A DNA stretch of 64,000 bases, from the NCBI RefSeq assembly GCF_014876185.1, contig NZ_JADALJ010000001.1:1717501-1781500 (forward strand), written 5' to 3'. The DNA comes from Rufibacter sp. LB8 (GTDB lineage Bacteria; Bacteroidota; Bacteroidia; Cytophagales; Hymenobacteraceae). Shown here one piece after another: positions 2,996 to 62,290 of the stretch. The position numbers and the translations under genes were made by a program. The notes below the pieces were generated by a model that made no database searches, had not been told where the DNA came from, and saw only the letters and a program-made list of their open reading frames with translations. Every line of letters begins with the position of its first letter. The first letter of the stretch is position 1.

Positions 2996-3035
2996 CCGTT
3001 TTCGGGCTCAATTCTGGAAATGGAGCCAAAAACAG
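2996..3035. repeat. 40-bp palindromic repeat, copy 1
   Basis: Left arm CCGTTTTCGGGCTCA, centre ATTCTGGAAAT, degenerate right arm GGAGCCAAAAACAG. Intergenic, 40 bp before copy 2. Confidence 0.8.
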
Positions 3036-3074
3036 CATGCGTGGCGAAACTTGACAGCTTATGCAAAATGCTTT

Positions 3075-3114
3075 CCGTTTTTGGCTTCATTTCTGGAAAC
3101 GAAGCCAAAAACGG
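3075..3114. repeat. 40-bp palindromic repeat, copy 2
   Basis: Arms CCGTTTTTGGCTTC and GAAGCCAAAAACGG are fully complementary; pairing continues into flanking TTT/AAA (3072-3117). It lies between the convergent outer-membrane and RSH genes and could end transcription of either. Confidence 0.88.
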
Positions 3115-3132
3115 AAATTCTTACTCACGCTG

Positions 3133-5337
3133 CTAAGAATCAAACCGGTCCACGCTCAGCACGCCGTTCACTTTCATGAGCCGCTGAATCAGTTTCTCCA
3201 GCTGGGCGGTGTCATTCACAAACACCATCAGCCTGCCTTCAAACACGCCGTCATTGGAGTCAATGGTGATGGAGCGCATATTCACTTTGAGCGAGTTGGA
3301 AATCACCTTGGTTACATCATTCACCAAGCCCACGCGGTCGGTTCCTTTAATGGTGATACCCGCCAGAAACGACAGTTCCTGCTGCCCGGTCCACTTGGCC
3401 TTCACAATGCGGTGCCCGTAATTCGACATCAGTTCCACGGCTTTGGGGCAGGTAGTGCGGTGAATAGAAATACCGTGCTTCACCGTCTGGAACCCGAACA
3501 CATCATCTCCCGGAATAGGATTGCAGCATTTGGCCAGTTCATAGTCTATCTTGTCGGTGTCGCCGCCAATAACCAGCAACTGCGAGTTGATGCCCCTGAT
3601 TTTCTCCACCTCTTTGTCAAAACTGGAGCCGTCTAGCATAGACACCGGCTTATACTGGTCACTGTGCGGGTTGAAGATGTAGTCTTTGATTTCCTTGATG
3701 TCCAGCAGGCCCGCCGCCACTCTATAATAGAAGTCCTGTAAGGACGGCGCGTTGAAATAGGCGGCCAGGCGGTTGAGGTTGGCGGTGGAGGCCTCAATGG
3801 AAAGCTGTTTCAGGCGCGCTTCTACAAGTTCACAGCCTTCCTCGGCTTTCTCTTTGCGTTCTTCGCGCAGGAAATCTTTTATTTTAGAACGCGCTTTGGA
3901 TGTGGTGACAAATTTCAGCCATTCGCCGGTGGGCTTCTGTTTCTGCGACGTCAAAATCTCTACCTGGTCGCCGTTGTGCAAGCGGTAACTCAACGGCACC
4001 AGTTTCTGGTTCACCTTCGCGCCCAGGCACTGGTAGCCAATCTGCGTGTGTATCTCAAAGGCGAAATCCAACGTGGTGGCTCTATCCGGAAGAATAATCA
4101 ATTCCCCTTTGGGTGTAAACACGAAAATTTCCTCCACAAACAGGTTGGTCCGGAACTCATCCAGGAACTCAATGGCGTTGGTGTTGCTCACTTCCAGCAT
4201 GTCGCGCACTTTGTTGATCCAGTTGTCCAGGCCAGACTCTGCCGGGCCCACACTGCCGGTTTTGTATTTCCAGTGGGCCGCATAGCCGCGTTCGGCCACG
4301 TCATCCATGCGTTTGGTTCTGATCTGCACTTCCACCCATTGGCCGGTTTTGCTCATGACCGTGGTGTGCAAGGCCTCATAGCCGTTGGCTTTGGGCGTGC
4401 TCACCCAGTCACGCAGGCGGTCTGGGTTGGGCTGGTAAAAATCGGTGACAATAGAATACACGCGCCAGCAGGCCGGTTTCTCCTGTTCATACGGCACGTT
4501 CAAGATGATTCTGATGGCGAACAGGTCATAGATTTCCTCAAAGGTGACGTTCTGCTTCTTCATCTTTTTCAAGATGGAGTAAATGGACTTGGGCCGGCCT
4601 TTCACCTCAAAATCTGTGAACCCTTGTTTGCGCAGTTCTTCTTCTATAGGCGAAATAAAATCTCCAATGAACTTGCCGCGCGCGCTCTTGGTCTGCCTGA
4701 TTTTATTGGAGATGTATTTATAGGTCTCAGTATCTGTGTACTTGAGATGCAGGTCTTCCAGCTCAGACTTAATGGCATACAAACCCAGGCGGTGGGCCAA
4801 GGGCGCGTACAAATACATGGTTTCTGAGGCAATCTTGAGCTGCTTGTCACGGGCCATGCTGCCCAGCGTGCGCATGTTGTGGAGGCGGTCAGCCAGTTTA
4901 ATCAGAATCACGCGCACGTCATCTGAAAGCGTGAGCAGCATTTTCCGGAAATTCTCTGCCTGTTGGCTGGTGCCGTACTCAAAGACACCGGAAATCTTTG
5001 TCAGGCCTTCAATGATTCTAGCCACCCGAGGCCCGAAGTCGCGTTCAATGTCGGCAATCTCCAGGTCGGTGTCTTCTACCACGTCATGCAGGAGCGCGGC
5101 CACAATGGAGGTGGTGCCCAGGCCAATCTCTTCCACGGCAATCTGGGCTACGGCCAAAGGGTGCAGAATGTAGGGCTCACCTGACTTGCGGCGCATTTCT
5201 TTGTGGGCCTCCAACGACGTGTTGAAAGCCTTCTTTATAATCTTGGCGTCATTGTCTTTTAAGAATGGTTTTGCGTGGCGCAGCAACTTTCTGTAATGGC
5301 GCAGTATCTCCTTCCGCTCGGCTTCGTGGTCAATCAT
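3133..5337 (-). CDS. rsh: Bifunctional (p)ppGpp synthetase/hydrolase, RSH (RelA/SpoT) family
   Basis: Makes and degrades the stringent-response alarmone (p)ppGpp. The 734 residues follow the long-RSH layout: an HD hydrolase domain with intact HDVVED at residues 84-89, a synthetase domain (YDLFAIRIIL; RDWVSTPKANGYEALHTTV; VEVQIRT), a TGS domain near residues 400-460 (FVFTPKGELIILP), the Cys-containing helical region (CCNPIPGDDVFGF; HRTTCP), and a C-terminal ACT domain (LAGITIKGTDRVGLVNDVT). The preserved HDxxED motif argues for hydrolase activity as well as synthesis. No second long RSH is seen in the window. Start ATG at 5335-5337; transcribed alone, facing copy 2 of the palindrome at its 3' end. 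Confidence 0.96.
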   Translation of the reverse strand: MIDHEAERKEILRHYRKLLRHAKPFLKDNDAKIIKKAFNTSLEAHKEMRRKSGEPYILHPLAVAQIAVEEIGLGTTSIVAALLHDVVEDTDLEIADIERDFGPRVARIIEGLTKISGVFEYGTSQQAENFRKMLLTLSDDVRVILIKLADRLHNMRTLGSMARDKQLKIASETMYLYAPLAHRLGLYAIKSELEDLHLKYTDTETYKYISNKIRQTKSARGKFIGDFISPIEEELRKQGFTDFEVKGRPKSIYSILKKMKKQNVTFEEIYDLFAIRIILNVPYEQEKPACWRVYSIVTDFYQPNPDRLRDWVSTPKANGYEALHTTVMSKTGQWVEVQIRTKRMDDVAERGYAAHWKYKTGSVGPAESGLDNWINKVRDMLEVSNTNAIEFLDEFRTNLFVEEIFVFTPKGELIILPDRATTLDFAFEIHTQIGYQCLGAKVNQKLVPLSYRLHNGDQVEILTSQKQKPTGEWLKFVTTSKARSKIKDFLREERKEKAEEGCELVEARLKQLSIEASTANLNRLAAYFNAPSLQDFYYRVAAGLLDIKEIKDYIFNPHSDQYKPVSMLDGSSFDKEVEKIRGINSQLLVIGGDTDKIDYELAKCCNPIPGDDVFGFQTVKHGISIHRTTCPKAVELMSNYGHRIVKAKWTGQQELSFLAGITIKGTDRVGLVNDVTKVISNSLKVNMRSITIDSNDGVFEGRLMVFVNDTAQLEKLIQRLMKVNGVLSVDRFDS

Positions 5338-5429
5338 AGGGGTAAGTACGTCAGATTACTCGCAAAAGCAAGAGTGCCCGGCATGCTGACCAGTTTTATA
5401 AAATTTTTACCAAAAAAAACGAAAGCAAG

Positions 5430-5461
5430 TTGCATAAACAAAAAAGAGTTTGCTACATTTG
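5430..5461 (+). promoter_or_regulatory. Promoter of tRNA-Leu
   Basis: TTG at 5430-5432 and TACATTTG at 5454-5461, 21 bp apart, fit the Bacteroidota promoter form. The tRNA begins 26 bp after the -7 box. Confidence 0.5.
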
Positions 5462-5487
5462 CAGCACCATTACAAAACACACTGTAT

Positions 5488-5569
5488 GCGGATGTGGCGA
5501 AATTGGTAGACGCACTAGACTTAGGATCTAGCGCTGCGAGGCATGGGGGTTCGAGTCCCTCCATCCGCA
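5488..5569 (+). tRNA. tRNA-Leu (anticodon UAG)
   Basis: The acceptor stem GCGGATG (5488-5494) pairs with CATCCGC (5562-5568), with discriminator A at 5569. The anticodon stem CTAGA/TCTAG encloses the loop CTTAGGA, giving anticodon TAG (UAG), which reads CUA and related Leu codons. T arm GGGGGTTCGAGTCCCTCC is present, and there is a short variable arm between anticodon and T arms as in Leu tRNAs. CCA is not encoded. About 82 nt. Confidence 0.95.
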
Positions 5570-5576
5570 CAAGTGA

Positions 5577-5610: not shown

Positions 5611-5646
5611 CAATTTTATAGTCGCACAACTTAAACCTCAAGCACC

Positions 5647-7113: not shown

Positions 7114-7153
7114 CTGATTTCGGGCTCATTTCCAGAAATGAGCCCGAAATCAG
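7114..7153. repeat. 40-bp palindromic repeat, copy 3 (compensatory variant)
   Basis: Arms CTGATTTCGGGCTCATTT and AAATGAGCCCGAAATCAG are fully complementary. Relative to other copies both arms carry the matching change (TGATTTC/GAAATCA instead of CGTTTTC/GAAAACG). Pairing extends into TTT/AAA, 7111-7156. Confidence 0.9.
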
Positions 7154-8004: not shown

Positions 8005-8044
8005 CCGTTTTTGGCCTGATTTCTGAAAATGAACCTGAAAACAA
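8005..8044. repeat. 40-bp palindromic repeat, copy 4 (degenerate)
   Basis: CCGTTTTTGGCCTGATTT left, AAATGAACCTGAAAACAA right; several mismatches in the stem. It lies between mazF and clpP. Confidence 0.65.
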
Positions 8045-8938: not shown

Positions 8939-8978
8939 CCGTTTTCGGGCTCATTTCCAGAAATGAAGCCAAAAACGG
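8939..8978. repeat. 40-bp palindromic repeat, copy 5
   Basis: CCGTTTTCGGGCTCATTT, centre CCAG, right arm AAATGAAGCCAAAAACGG. Ends match as CCG/CGG. Confidence 0.85.
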
Positions 8979-10491: not shown

Positions 10492-10539
10492 AAAACGGAA
10501 AGGCTCCCTTAGCAATGCGAAGGGAGCCTTTCCGTTTTT
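10492..10539. terminator. Terminator between convergent clpX and lpxB
   Basis: A 19-bp perfect stem: AAAACGGAAAGGCTCCCTT (10492-10510) with AAGGGAGCCTTTCCGTTTT (10520-10538), loop AGCAATGCG. T run on the plus strand and A run preceding allow use in both directions. The outer 7 bp (AAAACGG/CCGTTTT) equal the tips of the palindromic repeat family. Confidence 0.9.
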
Positions 10540-10571
10540 GGGCTCTACATTTGAAATGAGGGCTAAACCGC
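10532..10571. repeat. 40-bp palindromic repeat, copy 6 (degenerate, merged with terminator)
   Basis: CCGTTTTTGGGCTC then an altered centre and GAGGGCTAAACCGC. The left tip is shared with the clpX terminator stem, and the right end reaches into the last codons of lpxB (stop at 10563-10565). Confidence 0.5.
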
Positions 10572-14198: not shown

Positions 14199-14241
14199 CT
14201 AAGGGGCCAAAGATACAGGAAAAGTTCATGTGGCAGATGGG

Positions 14242-14281
14242 CGTTTTCGGGCTCATTTCTGGAAACGGAGCCAAAAACGGA
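14242..14281. repeat. 40-bp palindromic repeat, copy 7
   Basis: GCGTTTTCGGGCTCATTT, centre CTGG, right arm AAACGGAGCCAAAAACGG. It sits in the divergent gap between the binding-protein operon and hldD. Confidence 0.8.
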
Positions 14282-15341: not shown

Positions 15342-15376
15342 CAGAACGCCAGCCCAACCCGCTGGCGTTTCTGTTT
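15342..15376 (+). terminator. Terminator after hldD
   Basis: CAGAACGCCAGC (15342-15353) pairs with GCTGGCGTTTCTG (15361-15373), then TTTT. The final CTGTTTT is also the left tip of palindrome copy 8, so the two hairpins are fused. Confidence 0.8.
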
Positions 15377-15410
15377 TCGGGCTCAATCCTGAAAATGAAG
15401 CCGAAAACGC
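15371..15410. repeat. 40-bp palindromic repeat, copy 8
   Basis: CTGTTTTCGGGCTCA, centre ATCCTGAAAAT, right arm GAAGCCGAAAACGC. Shares its left tip with the hldD terminator. Confidence 0.78.
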
Positions 15411-15514: not shown

Positions 15515-15554
15515 CTGTTTTCGGGCTCATTTCTGGAAACGGGGCCGAAAACGG
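15515..15554. repeat. 40-bp palindromic repeat, copy 9
   Basis: CTGTTTTCGGGCTCATTT, centre CTGG, AAACGGGGCCGAAAACGG. It lies 105 bp after copy 8, upstream of the FRG gene. Confidence 0.85.
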
Positions 15555-16624: not shown

Positions 16625-16664
16625 CTTTTTTTGGCCTCATTTCCAGAAATGAGCCCCAAAACAG
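16625..16664. repeat. 40-bp palindromic repeat, copy 10
   Basis: CTTTTTTTGGCCTCATTT, centre CCAG, AAATGAGCCCCAAAACAG. It lies between the convergent FRG gene and the outer-membrane gene. Confidence 0.78.
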
Positions 16665-16679: not shown

Positions 16680-19600
16680 TTAGAAAAGAACTGATACTTG
16701 CATGCGGCCGGTGTGGATGGTTCTGATGCCTTGGGGTTTGCGGCCGTCATAGTCCAGGGTGATGTTGAGGCCGTTGCTGAGGCGTTGTTGCACGGCCAGG
16801 TTCCAGGTGAGATTGTTGCCCGGCTGAAACCCGTTGAGCATCTCAAACGCGATGGGCGAAAACGTGTTGCCGGTGTACTTGATGTTAATGTATTTGACCA
16901 CGCCGGTTACGGTGCGCTTGCTGACCTGGCTCAGGCGTGTTTCGGCGCCCACCTCATGGAACCGCGCGTTTTCCCGTTCCCCTTCCTCATTTTCCTTGAA
17001 CTGAAACTGGTACGTGCCCGTGAACCTGAGCGTGTTGTTGGGCTGAAAAGAAATTTCTGGCTTGGCCTCGTAAGATTGTATGGTGAAGTTTTTGTTCGTC
17101 AGGTAATTGGAAGTACTCTGCCGCGTGGCCTTGGTGACGTCTAGCCGGCTGGAGAAAACCTCGGTCAAGTTTACCCTGAACAAAACCTGGTGGCTGTCAT
17201 TGTTCCGAACATCGGTGCCGTTGGTCAATAGAATTTTCTGCTGGCTTTGTTGCAAGGTGTATTCCACGCCGTATTTGGGGTTGCTTCTATTGAAATAAAC
17301 GGTGTTCCTGAACGCCTGTGACAAAGAAAGCAAGCTGGAATCTGCGAAACTCAGACTGAACGGATTGAACCGGTTGCGCAGGCCGTTATCTGTGGTGCGT
17401 TTGTCAATAGTGATGAACGAGATGGCCGAAAATTTGGCCGCCATGCGTTTCCACCAGGCTTCCGCGGTTTGCCATTCTCTGGGCAAGCTGCTGTTGAGCC
17501 GGTAGGTGAAATTGTTGGTGTACGCAATCACGTATTCATCTGTGGGAATGAACAGCCTGATGTGCGTGCGGCGGTACGGCGGGTCAGTGGGCTGCGATTC
17601 AAAGAATTCGTCTAAATCCTGGGTTCCGTCGCCGTTCAGGTCTTCATAGTAATGCGTACCCTGGCCGGGAATTGTTTCTACAAACTGGTATTGGCGCTTT
17701 AGCTCGCGGCCGGTGCCAATGGCGTAGCTCATCTCTGAGCGCAGATGCCGGTTCAGGAAATCGCCGGTCCAGTTGATTTTTGACAGCACCGTGGTCTCCG
17801 GCAAACTGTCGCGGGCCTCAATGTTCCGGAACGTGAGCAAGGCAGTAAGTTGGTGGTTATTTTTGATGACCGTGCTGGCGCTCACGTTGTAAGTATTGGC
17901 TACTTGCCTGTTGCCCAACTCTCCATTCTCTGGCCGGTAATCTACGCGGCGGCTGTACTCTGCGCGGTACTTGAACGTGGCCGTGTCTGCGTTCTGAATG
18001 TACAACAAGTGGTCATCAAAATAATTAGCCGAAGCCAGCAGTTGTTCATTCAGGTTAGACGTCACACGGTTTTTGTCGAAGCGGTACACGTAGCCGGGCG
18101 TGATGTATTTGGTGGGATATTGCACGCCCACTTCGCCCCGTACCCACTCAGATTTGGTCTCCGGCTGGTTGTTGTTCATCAAGAAGAGATTCGTGCGAAG
18201 TTCCAGCCCCAGCAGCTTTTGCCCCAATTCCAGCAGATGCTGCGTGCCGTCTACTTCGCCGGGGCGGCTGCGGCGGCTCAGGCGGTAATTCACAAACCGC
18301 TGCGCATCTCGCACGCCGCCCACGGCAAACGTGAGAATGTGGTCTTCCACGCGCGGCTGTCTTGCCAGCGTAGTATTGGTGGGACTGCTCCAGTCACGGT
18401 CAAATTCCACATCGCGGTAGCGGTCAATGGGCACGAAGTTGGGGTCTGTGTATTCATAGGTGAACGCGCTGCGCAATTTGTAGTCGCCTAAGAATTTCAC
18501 TTGTTTGTCACTGAACTGGTAGCCCACGCGCAGGGCTTTGCCTTCATCGTCTTCTGAATCCAGCTTTGAAAACCGGTTGAGGTCATTTTTAGAACCGGCC
18601 ACTTCCAGAAAAACTTCGGCTTTGGCATCTAGCGCCCAGGTTCCGCCCAGCGTCATCATCTGTTTCTGAATAGGCGTGGGAAGAATTCGCACGGGTTCAT
18701 AGCGGCCTTGTGGCACACCGTTCACCGGTTCCACCCATTGGTACACGCGCCCGTTCACCGTGGAATTCTGCAGCACATAATTGCCCTGGCCCTGCGGCAC
18801 CTCAGTAAAACTCACGGCGTAATACGCTACCGTTGAATCTGTGGAATATTCATAAATGGTGTAGGTGCCGTTGGCGGTGGAAACTTCCTTGCGCTGGTAC
18901 AGCACTTGGTTCCGGTCAAACCTAACCGAGTCTGCCCCGCTGGTAAAGGCTTGGTTCACGTTGTCCCCAATCTGGGAGAGGAGCTGTTTCTGGGTTTGAT
19001 TCAGGTTGAGCAGTAGTGGACTATTAGGATTGTCAGCTTCATTGTAATAATTACCGTAGACCTTGAATTTGCCCATGTTCTGGTAATGGCTGGCGTGGAG
19101 CACGCTGCGGCTGTAATTCTGGTCTGAGTACTCAAAGTCCACGCGTATGCGCGAGTTTCTGGTAATCACCCATTTGGGTGTGAAGGTGATTTCGGCCTGG
19201 TTGTAGTCAATGACATAGTCAAAGTCGAAGCCACGTTGCAACAGCTGTCCGTCTAAATAAACCCGCTCAGAATTGGCCAGCACAATAATAAACCGTTCGC
19301 CGTTTGGGCCGCGCAGGCGGTACGGCCCCTGCACGCTTTCAATGGGCGTGATGATTTCTGAGGCAAATTTGCCCTTCGCCACCGAAGCTGCCACGGAGGT
19401 GGCACTTTCCCAGCCCGGTTTACCGCGGTTCACCTCCAAAGCACCGCCCTGCACGTTTTTGTAAAACTTGAGAAAATGGGAAGTTGGCCTATTGCGCAAA
19501 ACCACGTCGCCGCCCGTAATGGTCCACAACCGGTGCTGCAACGTGATGAACACGCGGTCAAATTCCTGCAGCTGCTGCGTGTTTCCTTCGGGCTGAAACG

Positions 19601-20240
19601 GAATGTTCTGGTCAGTGATTGAGGCGGTAATATCTATTTCCTCGGTCAGTTTTCCCTCCAATTGCAGGTTCAGGGCCGAATTCACGAACACATTCTGCGC
19701 ATTCCCCACTGACACGCCCCTGGAGATACTGCCCGTTTTGTTGAGGCCCGGCGTCTTGAACAATTCCTCACGGCCTGACGGTACCTCAAACACCGGTTGC
19801 CGCTCAAATGAAGTGGAATCCCATCTTCTAATATCGCGCTTGAATACACCCGCGCCCAGATTTACCGGTAACACGCGGTAACAAATCAAGATGGAATCCG
19901 TTTTCGGCCTCGTTTCCGGAAATGAGGCCGAAAACGCCCCGGTGCTATCTCGGGTGATTTTGTCTGGCAACAGCCGCGGCATTGGCGAAGGGCGGGCCGG
20001 CAGTTGCGTGAAAAAAAGCTGGTTGGTCTCGGCGTTGTACTGGTATGGCGGCGAAATCCTGACTTGCCGGCGGTCATAGAATTCCAGTGAAGCTTCCTGA
20101 ATGGTCAAGGAATCCAATTGGAACGCACCCACTTGCACCACAATCCATTTACAGCGCCGGTTAGACAATGACTGCGCCTGACTTCCCACGGCAAATAGGA
20201 ACGTCAGCATTAGAATGTTTATGAACGCGCGCTGGTTCAT
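16680..20240 (-). CDS. Very large outer-membrane beta-barrel protein, uncharacterised
   Basis: An 1186-residue secreted protein. Signal peptide MNQRAFINILMLTFLFAVGSQAQ, then long runs of alternating amphipathic strands rich in Tyr, Arg and Asn to the last residues (MQVSVLF, terminal Phe), the pattern of a large outer-membrane barrel. Segments such as GSISRGVSVGNAQNVFVNSALNLQLEGKL and ITDQNIPFQPEGNTQ recall Bacteroidota large surface proteins related to SprA of the type IX secretion system, but I cannot assign it to that family with certainty. Its start overlaps the upstream histidine kinase by 4 bp (ATGA), so the two are co-translated. Palindrome copy 11 is embedded in frame near residues 102-115. 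Confidence 0.7.
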   Translation of the reverse strand: MNQRAFINILMLTFLFAVGSQAQSLSNRRCKWIVVQVGAFQLDSLTIQEASLEFYDRRQVRISPPYQYNAETNQLFFTQLPARPSPMPRLLPDKITRDSTGAFSASFPETRPKTDSILICYRVLPVNLGAGVFKRDIRRWDSTSFERQPVFEVPSGREELFKTPGLNKTGSISRGVSVGNAQNVFVNSALNLQLEGKLTEEIDITASITDQNIPFQPEGNTQQLQEFDRVFITLQHRLWTITGGDVVLRNRPTSHFLKFYKNVQGGALEVNRGKPGWESATSVAASVAKGKFASEIITPIESVQGPYRLRGPNGERFIIVLANSERVYLDGQLLQRGFDFDYVIDYNQAEITFTPKWVITRNSRIRVDFEYSDQNYSRSVLHASHYQNMGKFKVYGNYYNEADNPNSPLLLNLNQTQKQLLSQIGDNVNQAFTSGADSVRFDRNQVLYQRKEVSTANGTYTIYEYSTDSTVAYYAVSFTEVPQGQGNYVLQNSTVNGRVYQWVEPVNGVPQGRYEPVRILPTPIQKQMMTLGGTWALDAKAEVFLEVAGSKNDLNRFSKLDSEDDEGKALRVGYQFSDKQVKFLGDYKLRSAFTYEYTDPNFVPIDRYRDVEFDRDWSSPTNTTLARQPRVEDHILTFAVGGVRDAQRFVNYRLSRRSRPGEVDGTQHLLELGQKLLGLELRTNLFLMNNNQPETKSEWVRGEVGVQYPTKYITPGYVYRFDKNRVTSNLNEQLLASANYFDDHLLYIQNADTATFKYRAEYSRRVDYRPENGELGNRQVANTYNVSASTVIKNNHQLTALLTFRNIEARDSLPETTVLSKINWTGDFLNRHLRSEMSYAIGTGRELKRQYQFVETIPGQGTHYYEDLNGDGTQDLDEFFESQPTDPPYRRTHIRLFIPTDEYVIAYTNNFTYRLNSSLPREWQTAEAWWKRMAAKFSAISFITIDKRTTDNGLRNRFNPFSLSFADSSLLSLSQAFRNTVYFNRSNPKYGVEYTLQQSQQKILLTNGTDVRNNDSHQVLFRVNLTEVFSSRLDVTKATRQSTSNYLTNKNFTIQSYEAKPEISFQPNNTLRFTGTYQFQFKENEEGERENARFHEVGAETRLSQVSKRTVTGVVKYINIKYTGNTFSPIAFEMLNGFQPGNNLTWNLAVQQRLSNGLNITLDYDGRKPQGIRTIHTGRMQVSVLF
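19898..19937. repeat. 40-bp palindromic repeat, copy 11, inside a coding sequence
   Basis: Arms CCGTTTTCGGCCTCGTTT and AAATGAGGCCGAAAACGC, nearly perfect. In the minus-strand frame it encodes AFSASFPETRPKT without interrupting the 1186-residue protein. Confidence 0.9.
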
Positions 20241-23200
20241 GACGGCTGCACCGGCAATTTCAGGAAGAAGGTGGTGCCTTCCTGGTCTTTGGTCTCAAAC
20301 CAGATGGTGCCGCCAATGGCTTCTACCGCTTTTTTCACCACGGCCAACCCAATACCAGAACCCGTGTACTTGGTACTGAAATTCGGCATGAAGATTTTGG
20401 GCTGCACGTCTTCTGGTATTCCTGAGCCGTTATCTGAAATGGCCGCCACTACCCAATCAGGTTCCAGGTTGGTCACGTCAATAGTGATTTCCGGCGTACG
20501 CGAAGACGGAACGGCCTGCAGCGCATTCAGCAGCAAGTTGTTGAACACCCGTATGAGTTGGTTTTCATCGGCGCGCACATGAATGGGCGTTTGGGGCAAA
20601 TTCAACTGCACCTGGTGTTGTTGTGAATTTATGTGGAGGTCGGCGGCGCGTTTAATGAGGTCGTTCAGTTCCAGGGTTTCCAGCTTGAGGTCTGGCATGG
20701 AGGTAAAATTGGAGAAAGAGGTGGCAATGTCACTGAGCACGTCAATCTGAGTGATCATGGTTTTGGAAATCTTCTCCACCAGTTCCTCCAGATTGCTCCT
20801 GCCCTCCTGCATAGCTTTGCGCAGGTACTGCAGTGACAACTTCATGGGCGTGAGCGGATTCTTGATTTCGTGGGCTACCTGGCGGGCCATCTCTTTCCAG
20901 GCGGCTTCTTTTTCGCGAAGCGCTAGTTCCTGTTTGCTTTCCTCCAGCTTCTGGAGCATCTGGTTGTATTCGCGCACCAACAAGCCAATCTCGTCGCGGG
21001 ATTCATAGACCAGTTTTTCATTGTTGCCGGTCAAAGTGGTTTTTTTAAGGCGTTCGGTGAGTAACTGCAAAGGCACCGTGAGCGCCCGCGTGGCCAGGTA
21101 ACTAAGCAGCACAAACACCAGAAACAAGACCGTGAAAATGTTGAGAATAGTGGTGATGAGCTGGATGAGTTTGTTATTCAGTTCTTTCTGCGAATCAAAG
21201 TACGGAATGGCCAGAAAACCGCTGGGGCTCACCTCCCCTGCTTTCCGTAAGGGCAAATACATGGTGCTGAAGGGCAGTTCGCCGGCTTTTTCCTGCAGCA
21301 GCATGCGCGCAAGGCCGCGCTCTTTCAGGCCGCTGTAGGCTTCGGGGTTTAGGCGCGTGGAGAGCACGCCGGCCTCAAACAAAGCGGGTTGGCTGGCAAT
21401 CTGCAGTTGTCCCTGGGCATTGTACACGTTTACTTCGGTCTGGGCCAACGCGGCTAACCGGTTTACGCGCCGAACCAACGAATCTGGCCGCGTGCTTCTC
21501 CCGCCCAACGCATTGGTCATGAGGTTCTGCCGGATGAATTCGCCTTGCTCAGTGTAGCCTCTGGTTAAATCCTGTTGGTAAGAATCGGTGACCAGGCTGC
21601 CAATGGTAAGGCTAACTAATACGAGCGGAACCAACACGCCCAAATTAAGGAACAGCTGAATTTTAGTACTGAACGTGGAAGTGATGACTTGCACCAATTC
21701 GCCCCGATACAGCACAGAGACCGCCAGCAACCCAAACAAAGTGACGGTATGCAGCAGAAAGAGAAACGAAAAATTGGACAGCCAGGACCTGAACCCGTAG
21801 ATGGGCGTACTCACCACCGCCACCGTGCCGTCCATGGATTTAGTGGCCACGTGGTGGTACCCGGCAATAGTCAAGCCCTGGGTGTACAGCAGCGGCACCT
21901 CTAACAACGCCGACCCAAACGTTTGGCTGTACTCAAAATAGCCTTCGGTCTTTAGTAAGCGGTTTTCGCGCCACAGGGCGTAACTGCTGGCTGGAACGGC
22001 GTTGCCCTGGGTGCTTTTGCGTTCCACCAACAATTCTGGCAACACACTGTTGGGGGTGGTTATTTTAGGGCTCAGTTCCAAAACCACCGTAGCCCATTGC
22101 CCTTCGGTTAAAAGCAGTTTAATTTCCTGCAGATACGTAAACCGGCCAGGCTCTGCCGCTGAACTCACCAGCAACTGGCCTTTCTGGGTGGTAGGTTTGG
22201 CTCCCGTGGCTCTGGTGGCGGCATAGGTCTCCAGATTCAAGGCAGAGTCATGCACCATAAGCGCCGCGCCGTTGACGTCAAACATTCGGAGGACCACCGT
22301 GTAACTCTCTGTGAGCGGCCGAAGGTAATGCCTTCTTATTTTTTGATCAATGAACTTCTGGTTTACCCAAGGCGCACGCAGCGTACGCGTAATCAAGGCA
22401 TCTTTTTGAATGGCGGTGGCGGCCTCAGCGAGCAGGTATTCGGTGACTTCATCGCGGTCTTTCAATAATTGAGCGGCCACGCGCTGTTTTTCTTGCCGGA
22501 GCTGTTTATCGTACAGATCATACAACGCCGCGCCACCCAGACTGGCACTGATGATGTTCACCAGAAATACGCTGGAATAGATGCTGGCCTTGTTCAGGAA
22601 CCGTCTGTGCGCCATTTCCCAAAGAACCAGCAAAGAACTGGAGAGCAAAACGGTCCAGTTGCCAATGGGTGCCTCGCGCCAGAACGCCCACAAAAGTGCC
22701 ACCAGCAATACCGTGCCCCAGGCCGCGGCAAACGGCGCAAGGCTGTCTGAGTTAAACGGAAGCCACCGAAGCAAGAGCCTGAGCAGCCAACTTATAGCCA
22801 GCGTGTGCAGCACCATGGCCAGGAACAACAGCAGTTTCTCGGGGTTGAACTGTATGTTCTGCGTGATGTCCAGGATGGGTTGGGAATTGGTGATGAGGCT
22901 TCGGTAACTTTCATACCAACTAATCATGAGCACTATAATTCCCAGGGCAAGCAGCACGCTGAACATATTCTGTTTTTGGCCTTGATTCTGAAAATGAGCC
23001 CCAAAACGCTTGCCTTTGGCGTACTGGTACACCCACCAGGACAAAACTAGAAGAAGCCCCTCGTTCAAAAGCAAATCGCCTAAAGACGGCGACCACCAAG
23101 CGGCGGCATATACCCGTGGGCTGAACAACCCAACGTCTTGCACCGTGCCCGGGAACTGCCCCAGCAGCATGACCATCCGGAGCAAAAGCAACCCGGCCAC

Positions 23201-23926
23201 CGCAAAATTCAAAGCCATGCCCGGTTTGCCCTGTGCCTGAAGCTGTTTTTTTCGGGTTAACACAAAGCCTAACCAACTGACAATGGCCAGCACGTACAAC
23301 TGCAAAGTGAATTTGCTGGCGTGCAGCCACTGGTTTGGCTCCAGAATCTTCAATGAAAAAAGGTACTGCCCCTGAGTGCCTTTGATTACAAAGGCATTTT
23401 CACTTTTATCGGTTTGCAACGCTACTGCATGGTCCTCAAACAGGGCTGGGTTTAGTGCGTTTTTCAAGTACGAATTGCTGATGCCGTACCTGGTTTCCAG
23501 CGGCGTGACAGTTACAAGTAAATAGTCTGGGGCTTGCCTCTGGCTGACCACCAAAAATCGTCCGAACCTATTCTCCAGAATCTGAATTGGCTGTCTGACC
23601 ATGTGGGGCTCCACGTCACTGCGCAGCATATGGTCTGACCAGAATACCAGTTGGTTGGCCTGGTAAATAAGCACCGGGCTGGTAGCTTGGGGCAATAGCG
23701 CCGAAAACTGACCTGCCTTCAGCGGAAGACCTGCGCTCAGTTGTTTGAGAAGAGATTGGCTTTGGGCGATTTGGGAATGGACCCGCGCCTGGATTTCCTG
23801 GGCTAACTGCTGCTTTTTGGAATGGAGCAGGTCACGCTGCACACTGGTTTGCAGAAACAATCCTACCCCGCCCAAGAGCAAGGCAACCACAAGAAAGAAG
23901 AAAGGGAGATTGCCGCGGTACCTCAA
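20237..23926 (-). CDS. Large membrane sensor histidine kinase, NtrY-like
   Basis: A 1229-residue kinase with an unusually large membrane and sensor part. Visible in order: TM segment near residue 10, periplasmic region, several TM helices between about residues 210 and 470, a second extracytoplasmic region (about 490-740), TM helices near 760-790 and 900-920, HAMP linker (LTERLKK to YNQMLQKLEESKQEL), HisKA with His1019 in ARQVAHEIKNPLTP, and HATPase_c with N box NQLIRVFNNLLLNAL, G1 SDNGSGIP and G2 GSGIGLAVV. HEIKNPLTP is the NtrY/NtrB style. No response regulator gene lies next to it. Palindrome copy 12 lies in frame in the membrane half. It is coupled to the giant outer-membrane gene downstream. 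Confidence 0.9.
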   Translation of the reverse strand: MRYRGNLPFFFLVVALLLGGVGLFLQTSVQRDLLHSKKQQLAQEIQARVHSQIAQSQSLLKQLSAGLPLKAGQFSALLPQATSPVLIYQANQLVFWSDHMLRSDVEPHMVRQPIQILENRFGRFLVVSQRQAPDYLLVTVTPLETRYGISNSYLKNALNPALFEDHAVALQTDKSENAFVIKGTQGQYLFSLKILEPNQWLHASKFTLQLYVLAIVSWLGFVLTRKKQLQAQGKPGMALNFAVAGLLLLRMVMLLGQFPGTVQDVGLFSPRVYAAAWWSPSLGDLLLNEGLLLVLSWWVYQYAKGKRFGAHFQNQGQKQNMFSVLLALGIIVLMISWYESYRSLITNSQPILDITQNIQFNPEKLLLFLAMVLHTLAISWLLRLLLRWLPFNSDSLAPFAAAWGTVLLVALLWAFWREAPIGNWTVLLSSSLLVLWEMAHRRFLNKASIYSSVFLVNIISASLGGAALYDLYDKQLRQEKQRVAAQLLKDRDEVTEYLLAEAATAIQKDALITRTLRAPWVNQKFIDQKIRRHYLRPLTESYTVVLRMFDVNGAALMVHDSALNLETYAATRATGAKPTTQKGQLLVSSAAEPGRFTYLQEIKLLLTEGQWATVVLELSPKITTPNSVLPELLVERKSTQGNAVPASSYALWRENRLLKTEGYFEYSQTFGSALLEVPLLYTQGLTIAGYHHVATKSMDGTVAVVSTPIYGFRSWLSNFSFLFLLHTVTLFGLLAVSVLYRGELVQVITSTFSTKIQLFLNLGVLVPLVLVSLTIGSLVTDSYQQDLTRGYTEQGEFIRQNLMTNALGGRSTRPDSLVRRVNRLAALAQTEVNVYNAQGQLQIASQPALFEAGVLSTRLNPEAYSGLKERGLARMLLQEKAGELPFSTMYLPLRKAGEVSPSGFLAIPYFDSQKELNNKLIQLITTILNIFTVLFLVFVLLSYLATRALTVPLQLLTERLKKTTLTGNNEKLVYESRDEIGLLVREYNQMLQKLEESKQELALREKEAAWKEMARQVAHEIKNPLTPMKLSLQYLRKAMQEGRSNLEELVEKISKTMITQIDVLSDIATSFSNFTSMPDLKLETLELNDLIKRAADLHINSQQHQVQLNLPQTPIHVRADENQLIRVFNNLLLNALQAVPSSRTPEITIDVTNLEPDWVVAAISDNGSGIPEDVQPKIFMPNFSTKYTGSGIGLAVVKKAVEAIGGTIWFETKDQEGTTFFLKLPVQPS
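22970..23009. repeat. 40-bp palindromic repeat, copy 12, inside the kinase gene
   Basis: CTGTTTTTGGCCTTGATT, centre CTGA, AAATGAGCCCCAAAACGC. Read on the minus strand it encodes RFGAHFQNQGQKQ near residue 306-318, between two hydrophobic segments. Confidence 0.8.
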
Positions 23927-24010: not shown

Positions 24011-24050
24011 CCGTTTTCGGGCTCATTTCTGAAAATGAGGCCAAAAACGG
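24011..24050. repeat. 40-bp palindromic repeat, copy 13
   Basis: CCGTTTTCGGGCTCATTT, centre CTGA, AAATGAGGCCAAAAACGG. It lies between the kinase gene and the end of the respiratory cluster. Confidence 0.85.
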
Positions 24051-41429: not shown

Positions 41430-41469
41430 CCGTTTTTGGCTTCATTTCCGGAAATGAGCCCGAAAACGG
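41430..41469. repeat. 40-bp palindromic repeat, copy 14
   Basis: CCGTTTTTGGCTTCATTT, centre CCGG, AAATGAGCCCGAAAACGG; pairing extends to flanking TTT/AAA. Confidence 0.85.
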
Positions 41470-41698: not shown

Positions 41699-41738
41699 CT
41701 GTTTTCGGGCTCATTTCTGGAAAGGAGCCCGAAAACGG
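41699..41738. repeat. 40-bp palindromic repeat, copy 15
   Basis: CTGTTTTCGGGCTCATTT, centre CTGG, AAAGGAGCCCGAAAACGG. Confidence 0.87.
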
Positions 41739-43918: not shown

Positions 43919-43955
43919 AGAGACAAGGCGGTGCCTGGTCTCTACAGTTTTTTTT
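43919..43955 (+). terminator. Terminator after the HAD hydrolase gene
   Basis: Stem AGAGACAAGGC (43919-43929) with GCCTGGTCTCT (43933-43943), one mismatch, then ACAG and eight T. The last T begins palindrome copy 16. Confidence 0.7.
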
Positions 43956-43994
43956 CGTTTTTGGCTTCATTTTCAGAAATGAGCCCGAAAACGG
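43955..43994. repeat. 40-bp palindromic repeat, copy 16
   Basis: TCGTTTTTGGCTTCATTT, centre TCAG, AAATGAGCCCGAAAACGG. Confidence 0.82.
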
Positions 43995-45213: not shown

Positions 45214-45544
45214 CAGATTCTGTTTTCGGCTTCATTTTCAGAAATGAGCCCTAAAACAGAAAACGTCTACTATAAGTTCACGCCTTTTTTTAAGCCAAAT
45301 ACTACTTCCTTTTTATTCGGCGGCAGGTACTAGAATGGTGAAAAATAGTTTAGCACTTTTTACGGTATACTCTATAAACCAAGAAAGTTTTTTAATGCAA
45401 AATGATTCAAAACAAAGGAGTTAGGCTTTGTAACGCTTTTCGTCCTTGCACTAAATAAATATCCTGCCGAAATTTGTAAGACAGCTGCGAATGGCTTTCG
45501 TGCCCACGCGCCTGTAAATTTCAACCCATTATAAAACCCCTGAA
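45214..45544. other. Intergenic region before the small secreted protein
   Basis: Contains palindrome copy 17 (45220-45259), then about 285 bp of A/T-rich DNA with no gene. I see no complete TTTG/TAnnTTTG promoter. Confidence 0.6.
45220..45259. repeat. 40-bp palindromic repeat, copy 17
   Basis: CTGTTTTCGGCTTCATTT, centre TCAG, AAATGAGCCCTAAAACAG; ends match as CTG/CAG. It starts 7 bp after the GSCFA stop codon. Confidence 0.82.
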
Positions 45545-48599: not shown

Positions 48600-48938
48600 C
48601 TGGTTCCATTTCATCTGGTTCTTCGCCAGAAAGCACCTTCATTTTCAGTTTCTTAGGCCGTTGCCCAAAGCCTTTTCAGCGCCATTCCTTCGGTTTTTCT
48701 GTTTTTGGCCTCATTTCCCAAAATGAGGCCAAAAATAATGTCCCGTTTCGTCCCGCAAAAAGGCGGTCTCGTCACTTGATTTTGCGCCTTCGTCCATAAA
48801 GTGGTCTTTTAACATTTTATTAACTAGCTGGCAAGCAACCTATTCCCGTAATTTGCATCTATATAATCAAAAGCACTACCCCACTAACCAGGCGCGGTGC
48901 TCTACTGGAAAGATTTGAAAACTATAAAAAACAATATT
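48600..48938. other. Intergenic region, priA to cupin gene
   Basis: One palindrome (48699-48738). The rest is A/T-rich with no gene; GTAATTTG (48848-48855) resembles an imperfect -7 box. Confidence 0.55.
48699..48738. repeat. 40-bp palindromic repeat, copy 18
   Basis: CTGTTTTTGGCCTCATTT, centre CCCA, AAATGAGGCCAAAAATAA; the right tip has lost the pairing. Confidence 0.72.
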
Positions 48939-49840: not shown

Positions 49841-49880
49841 CCGTTTTTGGCCTCGTTTCCAGAAATGAGCCCAAAAACGA
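49841..49880. repeat. 40-bp palindromic repeat, copy 19
   Basis: CCGTTTTTGGCCTCGTTT, centre CCAG, AAATGAGCCCAAAAACGA. It lies 31 bp upstream of the Rieske ATG, so it would be in that gene's leader. Confidence 0.8.
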
Positions 49881-50273: not shown

Positions 50274-50313
50274 CTGTTTTAGGGCTCATTTCTGGAGATG
50301 AGCCCCAAAACAG
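50274..50313. repeat. 40-bp palindromic repeat, copy 20
   Basis: CTGTTTTAGGGCTCATTT, centre CTGG, AGATGAGCCCCAAAACAG; ends CTG/CAG. The right tip CAG is shared with the next hairpin. Confidence 0.83.
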
Positions 50314-52997: not shown

Positions 52998-53037
52998 TTG
53001 GTTTAGTCCTCATTTCCAAAACAGAGCCCAAAAACGC
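52998..53037. repeat. 40-bp palindromic repeat, copy 21 (degenerate)
   Basis: TTGGTTTAGTCCTCATTT, altered centre, CAGAGCCCAAAAACGC. Decayed in the left arm. Confidence 0.5.
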
Positions 53038-54055: not shown

Positions 54056-54105
54056 CAAACCTGTTTTCGGGCTCATTTCTGAAAATGAGCCCGAAAACAG
54101 GTTTG
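54056..54105. repeat. Palindromic repeat, copy 22, extended to 50 bp and perfect
   Basis: Core 54061-54100 has arms CTGTTTTCGGGCTCATTT and AAATGAGCCCGAAAACAG (centre CTGA). The flanks CAAAC and GTTTG also pair, making a 23-bp stem without mismatch. Confidence 0.92.
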
Positions 54106-56060: not shown

Positions 56061-56094
56061 AAAAGCCGTTCCCCAACAGGAGCGGCTTTTTCCG
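56061..56094 (+). terminator. Terminator after the CocE-like gene
   Basis: AAAAGCCGTTCC pairs with GGAGCGGCTTTT (56079-56090) with a small bulge, then T and the left tip of palindrome copy 23. Confidence 0.75.
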
Positions 56095-56131
56095 TTTTCG
56101 GCCCCGTTTCCAGAAATGAGCCCGAAAACGG
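56092..56131. repeat. 40-bp palindromic repeat, copy 23
   Basis: CCGTTTTCGGCCCCGTTT, centre CCAG, AAATGAGCCCGAAAACGG. Begins directly after the terminator. Confidence 0.85.
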
Positions 56132-59711: not shown

Positions 59712-59716
59712 AGGTG

Positions 59717-59780: not shown

Positions 59781-59837
59781 AAAATGGCTTCTGTTTTTTC
59801 GACATTAATCCCACGGCAGCTTAAAAGCACAGACCAC

Positions 59838-59877
59838 CTGTTTTCGGGCTCATTTCTGGAAACGAGCCCGAAAACGC
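59838..59877. repeat. 40-bp palindromic repeat, copy 24
   Basis: CTGTTTTCGGGCTCATTT, centre CTGG, AAACGAGCCCGAAAACGC. It lies between regulator and kinase genes, so it would be inside a joint transcript. Confidence 0.85.
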
Positions 59878-59946
59878 AAAGGCCAAGAGTAAACAAATGA
59901 CCATCTTCACATTTCCAAATTTTCAAATCAAACTGCACCTTACCCC

Positions 59947-61266
59947 ATGCGGCTTCAGTCTAAGTTAACGCTTTTCAGTGCGGTTTCTAAAGTCATCATC
60001 TTGCTGGTCCTGATTCTGGTGCTGCCCTGGCTGGTGAACCGGGTGGCCCTGCACAACGCCGACGCGCGCCTCCAGGAAAAAGAAGCCAGGCTGTACGCCA
60101 TCATTGAAGAACAGGGCATTGAATCGTTCATTACGGAAGAAACCGGTGATGCCTACGGGAGTTACAACCTCTTAAAAGAGGAATTCATCTCCTTGGAGCA
60201 GATTTCCTCCGGCAGGGTGCACAACGGTATTGAGAACAGCCGCCGAAAGGTGGATAATGATATTGTGGAGTACCGCGTCCTCTCCTCTACCTTTGACTTG
60301 GGCGACCAACGCTACCTGCTGGAAATTGGCCGCTCGCTGGCTACCATTGGCGACAACAGCCAGACGCTGCAGCAATACGCGCTGTTCTTTTTGCTGGCGG
60401 TGGTGCTGCTTACCGTGTTTGTGGATTTGGCTTTCAGCAAAGTGCTGCTGCAGCCATTAACCATCATTGTGCGGCGCTTGCAGCGCATTGAACACCCCAC
60501 CGCGTTCACACCTAAAAGCCTTAAAACCTCCACCACAGATTTTCTCTACCTGAACCAAACCATCAACGGCATGATGCGCCAGATTCAGGAGGCGTTCCAG
60601 AAAGAGAAAGAGTTTATCGGTAATGTGTCGCATGAACTGCTCACGCCCGTGTCTATTCTGCAGAACCGCCTGGAGAATATGCTGGCAGACCCAGAAACCC
60701 CTGAACCGTTGCTTGAAAAACTGGTGGACAACCTGCGGACCCTGCACCGGTTGAAAAACATCATCAAGGCGCTGCTGCTCATTTCGCGCATTGAAAACGA
60801 GCAATACCTCAAAAATGAAACCGTGAACCTGAAGCACTTGGCAGAGGAAGTGGTGGAAGAAATCAAAGAACGTGCCGAGGCGAAAGACATCACCCTACAG
60901 ACAGACCTGACTGAGGACTTCGACCTGCCCCAGGCCAACCAATCTTTGCTGTTCACCATGCTGTTCAACGTGGTCAACAACGCCATCAAATACAACCAAC
61001 TCGCCGGTTCCGTCACGGTCTTGGGCAAAGTGGTGGGCAAAACCTATGAACTCAGCGTGATAGACACAGGCGCAGGCATTTCCGCAGAGCAATTGCCGCA
61101 CATTTTCAGCAGGTTCAAGCGCTTCCATGCCACCGACGGCGAAAGCCACGGCCTGGGTTTGCCCATTGTGCAGACCATCGCCCAGTTCCACGGCGTTGCG
61201 CTGAAGGTAGATTCAGTGGTTAGCCAAGGTACTACGTTCCGGTTTACGTTCCCCAGGAAAAACTAA
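59947..61266 (+). CDS. Two-component sensor histidine kinase
   Basis: 439 residues: TM helices at about 15-35 and 145-165 with an extracytoplasmic sensor between them, HisKA with His229 in GNVSHELLTPVSILQ, and HATPase_c with N-box LLFTMLFNVVNNAIKYN, G1 VIDTGAGIS and G2 GESHGLGLPIVQT. Partner of the response regulator upstream. The usual order is kinase directly downstream; the 235-bp gap with the octamer repeat and palindrome is unusual. Confidence 0.93.
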   Translation: MRLQSKLTLFSAVSKVIILLVLILVLPWLVNRVALHNADARLQEKEARLYAIIEEQGIESFITEETGDAYGSYNLLKEEFISLEQISSGRVHNGIENSRRKVDNDIVEYRVLSSTFDLGDQRYLLEIGRSLATIGDNSQTLQQYALFFLLAVVLLTVFVDLAFSKVLLQPLTIIVRRLQRIEHPTAFTPKSLKTSTTDFLYLNQTINGMMRQIQEAFQKEKEFIGNVSHELLTPVSILQNRLENMLADPETPEPLLEKLVDNLRTLHRLKNIIKALLLISRIENEQYLKNETVNLKHLAEEVVEEIKERAEAKDITLQTDLTEDFDLPQANQSLLFTMLFNVVNNAIKYNQLAGSVTVLGKVVGKTYELSVIDTGAGISAEQLPHIFSRFKRFHATDGESHGLGLPIVQTIAQFHGVALKVDSVVSQGTTFRFTFPRKN

Positions 61267-61267
61267 G

Positions 61268-61307
61268 TTGTTTTGGGGCTCATTTCCAGAATTGAGCCCC
61301 AAAACGG
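61268..61307. repeat. 40-bp palindromic repeat, copy 25
   Basis: TTGTTTTGGGGCTCATTT, centre CCAG, AATTGAGCCCCAAAACGG. GGGGCTC/GAGCCCC is a compensatory pair change against the usual CGGGCTC/GAGCCCG. Confidence 0.85.
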
Positions 61308-61380
61308 AAAAACCCGTCATTACTTGCAGGAACTTTGCGTAAACGGTTACTTCGTGGAACACAAATCAGCCGCAAGAAAA

Positions 61381-62244
61381 ATGAAGATAGGATTTATAGG
61401 ATTGGGTATCATGGGTAGCCGCATGGCCGCCAACCTGCAGAAAGCCGGGCATGACCTGGTGGTCTACAACCGCACCGCAGAAAAAGCCGATGAACTGGTG
61501 AAAAACGGCGCTACCCTGGCCGCATCACCGGAAGAAGTAGGACGCGCCTGCCGGGTGGTGTTCACCATGCTTTCTACGCCGCAGGCCGTGGAAGACGTGG
61601 CCCTGGGCCAGCACGGGTTCCTGAAAGAACTGCCCGGAAATTCATTGTGGGTGGACTGCAGCACTGTGAACCCCTCGTTCTCCAAAAGCATGGCGCAGAC
61701 GGCGCTCAAAATGGGACATCGGTTTTTAGATGCGCCTGTCTCCGGCTCGCTGGCCCCCGCCCAAAACGGACAGTTGGTGTTTCTGATTGGCGGCAGCGCT
61801 ACTGATCTAGACGAAGTCAAACCCTTGCTGGACGTGATGGGCAAGGCAGTGATTCATGTGGGCGACCACGGCCAGGGCGCCAGCATGAAAATGGTGAACA
61901 ACATGCTGTTTGGGCAGATCATGGTGGCGTTTTCTGAAGGGTTAAGATTGGGTACTTCGCTGGGAATTTCTGAGGAAGTCTTGTGCCAGACCTTAATGAA
62001 CGGCCCCGGCGGCGCGCCTTTCTTAAAACTGAAGGAACAGAAACTGCTCACCCGTGATTTTTCGCCGGAATTCCCGCTGGAGTGGATGCACAAGGATTTG
62101 CATTTGGCCAGCGTGACCGCGTATGAGCAAGGCGTGGCCTTACCGTTGCTGCAAAGCGCCAAAGAAATGTTCGGGTTTGCCAAGCAGGCGGGCTTGGGCG
62201 AAGAAGATTTCTCGGCGGTCTATGACTTCATCAACCCCAAATAA
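61381..62244 (+). CDS. NAD(P)-dependent beta-hydroxyacid dehydrogenase
   Basis: 287 residues from ATG 61381. GFIGLGIMGSRMAANL is the NAD(P)-binding Gly motif near residues 4-19; DAPVSGSLAPAQNGQLVFLIGG is the substrate-binding signature of the 3-hydroxyisobutyrate dehydrogenase/GLYR family, and Lys in MKMVNNML (about residue 170) is the catalytic Lys. Reduces succinic semialdehyde, glyoxylate or similar, or oxidises hydroxy-acids. The frame from 61273 starts in palindrome copy 25. Confidence 0.92.
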   Translation: MKIGFIGLGIMGSRMAANLQKAGHDLVVYNRTAEKADELVKNGATLAASPEEVGRACRVVFTMLSTPQAVEDVALGQHGFLKELPGNSLWVDCSTVNPSFSKSMAQTALKMGHRFLDAPVSGSLAPAQNGQLVFLIGGSATDLDEVKPLLDVMGKAVIHVGDHGQGASMKMVNNMLFGQIMVAFSEGLRLGTSLGISEEVLCQTLMNGPGGAPFLKLKEQKLLTRDFSPEFPLEWMHKDLHLASVTAYEQGVALPLLQSAKEMFGFAKQAGLGEEDFSAVYDFINPK

Positions 62245-62250
62245 GAAATC

Positions 62251-62290
62251 CTGTTTTCGGGCTCATTTCTGGAAATGAGCCCGAAAACAG
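62251..62290. repeat. 40-bp palindromic repeat, copy 26, perfect
   Basis: CTGTTTTCGGGCTCATTT, centre CTGG, AAATGAGCCCGAAAACAG: all 18 bp of each arm pair. It lies between convergent genes. Confidence 0.9.

Follow-up and report, generated by a model that had tools for sequence, protein, structure and literature searches.

A family of short extragenic palindromes with a conserved skeleton in the genus Rufibacter

Palindromes in the window

The window analyzed here is a 64,000-nucleotide stretch of the Rufibacter sp. LB8 genome (NCBI RefSeq assembly GCF_014876185.1, contig NZ_JADALJ010000001.1, positions 1,717,501 to 1,781,500 of the forward strand). Along it lies a family of short palindromes, each built of two 18-bp arms flanking a 4-bp centre. 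The source genome (4.75 Mb, two contigs) belongs to the genus Rufibacter of the Hymenobacteraceae. A two-arm scan that permitted centres of 3, 4 or 5 bp finds 26 sites between positions 2996 and 62290, and every centre is 4 bp long. A first-pass annotation, made from the letters alone, had described 26 hairpin repeats here, and shuffling bears it out: a 15-base arm with at most three mismatches matches the window 48 times, against 3.1 on average and at most 8 in 100 shuffles. The sole match in an Rfam search of the window is a tRNA; the palindrome matches no curated RNA family.

The sites are given without strand. Two stand at 2996–3035 (loop CTGG, 12/18 arm positions paired) and 3075–3114 (CTGG, 17/18). 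Those at 7114–7153 (CCAG), 54061–54100 (CTGA) and 62251–62290 (CTGG) pair at 18/18 positions each, and had rightly been called free of mismatches. One site lies upstream of clpP (8005–8044), one between clpP and clpX (8939–8978), and a weak one, paired at 9/18, is 3' of clpX (10532–10571), where its left arm overlaps the T-tract belonging to a terminator-like hairpin. Further on are a site in a divergent gap (14241–14280), two at 15371–15410 (CTGA, 12/18) and 15515–15554 (CTGG, 14/18), and one in a convergent gap (16625–16664). Two palindromes are within long open reading frames (ORFs): 19898–19937 in ORF 16680–20240 (−), and 22970–23009, paired at 11/18, in ORF 20237–23926 (−), a sensor-kinase gene by Pfam. 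The others are at 24011–24050 (CTGA), 41430–41469 (CCGG), 41699–41738 (CTGG), 43955–43994 and 45220–45259 (both TCAG), 48699–48738 (CCCA), 49841–49880 (CCAG), 50274–50313 (CTGG), 52998–53037 (degenerate, 10/18 paired), 56092–56131 (CCAG), 59838–59877 (CTGG) and 61268–61307 (CCAG); the last overlaps a called ORF, covering its initial 35 bp from the TTG start codon at 61273.

The asymmetric centre had been thought to give each site a direction. The sites lend this no clear support: loop direction shows no clear bias relative to genes or to chromosome position. On the sense strand of 84 tandem sites the loop is YCAG in 37, CTGR in 26 and something else in 21 (37 versus 26, p 0.21).

Copy number and distribution

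We scanned a genome sample of 464 kb (the window plus 20 stretches of 20 kb) for sites scoring at least 25 of 36. There are 184, and the reversed consensus gives no site at 25 or above in the same DNA. By extrapolation, this suggests roughly 1,900 copies in the source genome. The consensus is CCGTTTTCGGGCTCATTT-NNNN-reverse complement; counting positions from the centre outward (d1, d2 and so on), some information extends to about position 21. The typical element is 36 bp with the skeleton GTTT-N9-TTT-N4-AAA-N9-AAAC, whose 14 fixed letters we call anchors, and its flanks often prolong the stem.

The skeleton occurs 1,442 times in the source genome and is present in 16/16 genomes of the genus, with 186 (genome G009) to 1,561 copies in each of the 15 relatives and 13,719 in total; control patterns occur 0 to 2 times. 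Genomes from other genera of the family (188 of them) hold 0 to 3 each. An even draw of 291 genomes from the order included 4 of this genus; none of the others is clearly above control, the highest count being 15 against a control of 8. The first-pass annotation had left it to a search of the genome and its relatives whether copies abound elsewhere, and they do, genome-wide and in every genome of the genus examined. Among the genomes searched, the palindrome family is restricted to the Rufibacter group. Sampled stretches show the same build in other letters in 14 of the 15 relatives; G009 has no skeleton site in its 100 kb sampled.

The exact dialect pattern of the source genome (see below) has no match in viral contigs. 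Among the papers listed on Rufibacter, Hymenobacter and Bacteroidetes repeats and on repeats in general, the stem-loop surveys PMC2267715 and PMC1590033 included, no title or abstract opening could be recognized as an account of the family, and the main text of RepRanger (PMC12306157) mentions neither Rufibacter nor Hymenobacter.

Spacing is nearly fixed. In the samples of the 16 genomes, the skeleton has a spacer of 4 in 480 matches, of 3 in 30, of 5 in 4, and of 2 or 6 in none. A further 217 matches have inner lengths of 8 and 10, which we read as mostly the same sites with the register of the T-run shifted. Half-sites rarely stand alone: in the source genome, 237/237 half-sites scoring at least 14/16 lie within a full palindrome with a 4-bp centre, and solitary ones make up 2 to 9% in five relatives (6/67 in G005, R. 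immobilis; 4/107 in G006; 2/103 in G013; 2/49 in G007; 3/60 in G001).

Placement relative to genes

The palindromes are extragenic. Of the 184 sites in the source genome, 172 are in intergenic gaps, 8 in called genes and 4 at edges; coding sequence was called over 82% of the DNA sampled. Across the 16-genome samples, 465/480 skeleton sites fall outside called genes, as judged by a simple gene caller and with stretch edges counted as outside. Site density per kb of gap is 1.72 in convergent, 0.97 in tandem and 0.56 in divergent gaps. Within tandem gaps, 68/259 sites start 0–15 nt past the stop codon, where random placement would put 23.6, and 24/259 come within 40 nt of the following start, where it would put 63.9.

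Some copies abut another hairpin. At 38 of 952 arms, a hairpin of at least 7 bp ends no more than 3 nt from the initial T of GTTT. The number of hairpin ends per offset climbs there from about 7 to about 30, and a lesser peak of 24 stands some 15 nt upstream. With a hairpin ending so close to GTTT, the arm can also serve as that hairpin's T-tract.

Mismatches in the stem also depend on distance from the stop codon. We compared G-U with A-C mismatches on the sense strand of tandem-gap copies, summed over d4–12 and d17–24. Near-stop copies (<60 nt) have 278 G-U and 211 A-C (p 0.003, uncorrected), divided as 85/69 at d4–9, 47/26 at d10–12 and 146/116 at d17–24. Far copies have no G-U excess (183 versus 211; 49/69, 36/40 and 98/102 by zone), and the control zone d25–40 gives 313/297 near and 187/193 far. 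This pattern suggests that near-stop copies may work as RNA.

Retention and pairing

We compared R. hautae (G004) with Rufibacter sp. SYSU D00344 (G014) over 200 kb of synteny. Three of 46 sites were dropped for want of a usable interval. A counterpart that passes the site filter is present at 28 of the 43 usable sites, against 0–5% in six shifted placements, a control that is weak because many of its placements fall in genes. The anchors were followed separately, starting from sites with all 14 anchor letters and leaving the partner unfiltered; either species served as the start, so that some pairs are counted twice. Of 39 such sites, 33 are inside aligned DNA; anchor retention is 70% or more in 33/33 of these and 85% or more in 32. 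Among the six unaligned sites, the partner gap holds a near match (13 or 14 of 14 anchors) for four, two of which are partners of one another. For a fifth, the match in a 4.4-kb gap reaches just 11 of 14 anchors and may be due to chance; the sixth is not judgeable. No clean empty site was seen in this species pair among the sites that could be judged. From this comparison, copies seem to stay in place and to be vertically inherited.

Conservation is concentrated in the anchors. Column identity between the two species is 97% at anchors, 71% at d4–9, 61% at d10–12, 73% at d17–24 and 79 to 85% in the flanks, so that non-anchor stem columns diverge faster than flanks. GTTT or AAAC words 26–100 bp away from sites are 85% identical, against the 97% in anchors.

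Pairing was measured with a skeleton-anchored scan that does not require it, since a pairing-based scan would bias covariation. The first-pass annotation had held that changed core arms keep pairing and that pairing is under selection. The former is not borne out in the source genome, where pairing of the core arms is 0.73 against 0.73 in shuffled arms (z −0.2, 136 sites) and d4–9 is slightly below shuffled (z −1.6). Its remark that flanking bases often pair was correct: over the same 136 sites excess pairing reaches z 4.0 in the flanks (d17–24), and z 2.6 at d10–12. Of the 13 relatives with at least 4 sites, z is at least 1.9 at d10–12 in 8 and at d17–24 in 10; G002 has no excess in either zone. 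At d4–9 the excess is not significant in any of 14 genomes (top z 1.7).

Orthologous copies give a second view. In 27 orthologous pairs, double changes that keep a Watson-Crick pair number 23 against 8.4 expected, a count reached by 0/1000 shuffles; by zone they are 7 versus 2.5 at d4–9, 6 versus 2.3 at d10–12 and 10 versus 3.6 at d17–24. Sites with 13 of 14 anchors had to pair at 8 of 18 positions to be accepted, which may tilt these counts slightly toward pairing. Single changes that make or break a pair outnumber the doubles (43 at d4–9, 22 at d10–12, 48 at d17–24). The data support a force that favours pairing, whether selection or a templated process, mostly for the outer stem; in the core arms of the source genome pairing is not above expectation.

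Dialects and the tig-clpP-clpX locus

The non-anchor letters differ among species. At d5–d4 the source genome has CA in 197/272 half-sites (72%) and CG in 59. In 13 relatives with sampled skeleton sites, CA makes up 0 to 4% of halves, and the commonest d5–d4 pair is GT in 12 of these 13, Sabulibacter (5 sites) being the exception. R. glacialis has CA in 2/6 halves, and both of these halves belong to one copy.

The region of the trigger factor gene (tig) allows a comparison of sites at one locus. Trigger factor proteins from 10 Rufibacter and one Sabulibacter are 84–90% identical over the whole query, and Pontibacter comes next at 64–65%. Under a relaxed site criterion, the 11 named Rufibacter and Sabulibacter tig-clpP-clpX loci have palindromes in the gaps where the window has them. 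A palindrome is upstream of clpP in 11/11 loci. The gap behind clpX is covered by 10 of the loci and holds a palindrome in 8 of them, and the remaining gaps differ between loci. No palindrome occurs in this region in four Pontibacter loci, and one Adhaeribacter locus has two weak matches. From these shared gaps we infer that dialect change probably happened in place. The tig-clpP gap is about 1.1 kb in the window, and most relatives have no site at the place of its copy at 7114–7153.

At the clpP-upstream site (8005–8044), the left half TTTTTGGCCTGATTT is identical in the window and in 11/11 loci despite dialect differences; this site may have a regulatory role of its own. The gap behind tig also holds, in several Rufibacter species, very long, nearly perfect and locus-specific terminator stems of about 30 bp by eye.

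Transposases

Repetitive extragenic palindromic (REP) sequences are usually taken as traces of selfish hairpins moved by REP-associated tyrosine transposases (RAYTs). The source genome has six Y1_Tnp genes by Pfam, which we read from motif and length as one IS200-like and five RAYT-like, and a RAYT profile gives eight matches, some partial. All of them are outside the window, so the earlier statement that the window has no transposase holds as far as the Y1/RAYT family goes. A Y1_Tnp gene is present in 15/16 genomes of the genus (counts 0 to 6), and its number does not correlate with copy number (Spearman 0.25, p 0.36, 16 genomes). In G007 the search for Y1_Tnp at E≤0.001 and that with the 8-sequence RAYT profile at E≤0.01 both come up empty, and the genome still holds 607 copies; G009 has a RAYT, yet the fewest copies.

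Proximity tells the same story. A usable ORF was found at 22 of 33 Y1 loci, the other 11 being dropped for lack of one. A palindrome is within 300 bp of 8 of the 22 genes, compared with 494/1506 ordinary ORFs, so the earlier proposal to look for a RAYT beside copies finds no enrichment. At 15 of the 22 loci, 13-mers are shared across the gene flanks, and none touches a skeleton palindrome; the RAYT flanks carry repeats other than the palindrome family. Tags expected at the foot of a REP stem are not in excess either. Within 10 nt of the foot of 698 arms from 6 genomes, compared with 40–50 nt away, GTAG occurs 13 versus 17 times, GGAG 4 versus 23, GTGG 6 versus 16 and CGTC 14 versus 11. Genomes vary: GTAG is found 4 versus 1 times of 80 in G013, and CGTC is highest in G006 (7/136 versus 2). 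We rejected a RAYT-driven REP as the current explanation, given the absence of a detectable RAYT in G007, the lack of correlation and the flanks without enrichment.

Three arrangements at individual loci are worth recording. In L006 a 207-aa RAYT-like ORF (1465–2088, −) has its called ATG in a palindrome loop, the site centre being at 2086, and its flanks share a repeat containing GTAG. An IS200-like gene in three genomes (L001, L027, L028) has a palindrome 120–252 bp from its ends, on both sides in two of them; this is not unusual given palindrome density near ordinary ORFs. L003 has two related RAYT genes tail to tail (596–1159, +, and 1246–1791, −).

Comparison with known systems

Taken broadly, the family counts as REP-like, its members being short, palindromic, extragenic and high-copy, with a common consensus. 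It lacks the features that tie REPs to RAYTs. GTAG-type REPs (TnpA-REP) are likewise short extragenic high-copy palindromes that favour gene 3' ends and convergent gaps. The Rufibacter palindromes, in contrast, are not enriched for GTAG, GGAG or GTGG at the foot, show no link with the presence, number or flanks of RAYT genes, conserve anchors on both arms, and have sites at orthologous gaps in relatives. The parts of PMC3733652 consulted distinguish GTAG- from CGTC-tagged REPs and describe the CGTC kind as high-copy and without a dedicated transposase in several phyla, including Bacteroidetes. These resemble the present family in both respects, but the Rufibacter palindrome shows no CGTC excess at its foot (14/698 arms against 11/698).

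As far as the consulted portion of PMC6006769 describes them, members of the Bacteroidetes TnpA-REP subclass 2.6 are flanked by atypical REP-like structures, which are also hairpins without GT[AG]G, and from their motifs the Rufibacter RAYT genes appear to belong to that subclass. By description, those structures flank RAYT genes, whereas the Rufibacter RAYT flanks hold other repeats, and G007, without a RAYT match, still carries the Rufibacter palindrome. DNA uptake sequences (DUS) of the Neisseriaceae, in the part of PMC3630211 consulted, share very many copies and species-specific dialects. A DUS is one short motif and can lie inside genes too, unlike the Rufibacter sites. We rejected an uptake sequence because solitary half-sites are rare. 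Intrinsic terminators, finally, are hairpins behind genes too, and some palindromes abut a terminator-like hairpin with the T-tract in common; the Rufibacter element differs in lacking a trailing T-tract and in having anchors conserved in sequence, not in pairing alone.

Interpretation

Retention, anchor conservation and dialects argue for a function, as far as sequence comparison can. The reading we favour, at somewhat short of an even chance, is that the family is inherited vertically, is under selection and forms hairpins at transcript ends, where a putative factor probably reads them. Where transcription units end, the palindromes would form hairpins working in both directions, which determine or protect the 3' ends of transcripts and may assist termination. 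A putative trans-acting factor would read the anchors, and drift of this factor or of the family would yield the dialects.

Several observations weigh against a transcript-end hairpin. Its geometry is not absolute: besides the 30 matches with a spacer of 3, 80 more have one arm 1 base shorter. Divergent gaps also hold sites (65 in 287 gaps). There is no T-tract behind the element, which has T on the 5' side of the stem and A on the 3' side, with the bases behind the arm A-rich and then unconserved; it is therefore not a standard intrinsic terminator (GC stem plus T-tract), and we rejected that candidate. We also rejected the idea that palindromes replace terminators. Before stratifying, canonical terminators were found at 6/78 near-stop tandem gene ends against 120/602 without a palindrome, and at 42/171 convergent gene ends against 121/291, but the depletion mostly vanished once gaps were stratified by free length: p is 0.04 in one of eight strata and 0.28 to 1 in the others. 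The stratified comparison gives no support to termination itself. Near-stop tandem gaps remain low in terminators after stratification (5/75 versus 123/602 without a palindrome) and may be operon-internal. The order of terminator and palindrome is as random, with 38 up and 9 down against 33 and 10, in the 47 of 265 tandem sites that are informative. The G-U excess is modest and comes from one of several data cuts. Neither the initial spread of copies nor the in-place dialect change of a whole genome is explained by a transcript-end hairpin.

The main rival is a duplex-level docking site, at which a dimeric nucleoid or insulator protein, its specificity drifting by species, binds the DNA dyad between transcription units. 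We judge this unlikely, with some real weight left to it. It suits the nearly fixed spacing and scarce half-sites, the conserved anchors beside a d4–9 zone without significant excess pairing, the sites in divergent gaps and far from stops (where tandem copies lack the G-U excess), and a whole-genome dialect with relatives' sites in the same gaps around tig-clpX. A duplex reader would not, however, need the covariation of outer stem and flanks unless it bound a cruciform; the compensated changes at d4–9 and the preference for the first 15 nt after stops also speak against it, and no candidate protein was found. Quite unlikely, in our view, is a non-autonomous mobile hairpin like a REP or miniature inverted-repeat transposable element (MITE), spread by a RAYT or another transposase from lineage-specific masters. 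Over a thousand similar copies had to spread somehow, a species-specific consensus resembles bursts from masters, nearly all genomes of the genus have a Y1_Tnp gene, PMC6006769 (as consulted in part) places atypical REP-like structures beside a Bacteroidetes RAYT subclass, and the copy at 7114–7153 is at a place where most relatives have none. The first-pass annotation had read the family as transposable or gene-converted; a RAYT-moved or actively transposing family is not supported by the results: G007 has its 607 copies without a RAYT, copy number is unrelated to Y1 gene number, RAYT flanks bear other repeats with palindromes no commoner near Y1 genes, and 33/33 aligned sites are retained with no clean empty site among the judgeable others. 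Resident copies moreover keep their anchors, unlike dead transposons, and the second contig of the source genome has 3 sites in the 60 of its 155 kb sampled, where about 24 are expected at chromosomal density.

Template switching, in which hairpin-templated DNA synthesis corrects the outer arms and so yields compensated changes without selection on structure, is a route to compensatory change proposed in the consulted part of PMC8794818. The pairing excess, mainly in outer stem and flanks and not near the loop, fits priming at the inner stem with the outer arm copied; the faster change of non-anchor stem columns than of flanks also speaks for template switching. It leaves the 97% conservation of GTTT and TTT, the positional preference and the whole-genome dialect unexplained, and we give it little credence.

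Beyond the transcript-end hairpin, we entertain a broader proposal, tentatively and with doubt outweighing belief: a genus-wide recognition system built on a 36-bp palindrome of fixed geometry. A putative factor would recognize it, whether as an RNA hairpin, a cruciform or a dyad in duplex DNA, at as many as about 1,500 sites in a genome, and factor and sites would have co-evolved into dialects in place. If true, this would mean a bacterial repeat system maintained through recognition, without need of a transposase for its upkeep. Build, retention, skeleton and dialects point to an unrecognized function, not to ordinary mobile junk. Since the family is shared genus-wide, keeps its place and skeleton in the species pair compared, where its remaining letters undergo compensated change, and persists in a genome without a detectable RAYT, whether extragenic palindromes serve the cell becomes directly testable. 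The anchors predict factor contacts, and the dialects predict which species' factor fails on which site.

Dialects may also mark DNA moved between Rufibacter species. The second contig (L220) and the chromosomal stretch L013 have few palindromes, mostly without the home dialect, as if the DNA came from relatives: two of the 3 second-contig sites have the full skeleton and 3/4 of their halves are not CA, and L013 has two sites with no CA half. Two 20-kb chromosomal stretches, L018 (GC content 0.43) and L022 (0.51), have no palindrome, with 11 gaps of at least 48 bp in each. We infer that some stretches poor in palindromes or in the home dialect probably came from elsewhere. In R. glacialis, two closely spaced copies at L073 15178–15217 and 15354–15393 are in or near the dialect of the source genome, possibly as a transferred segment.

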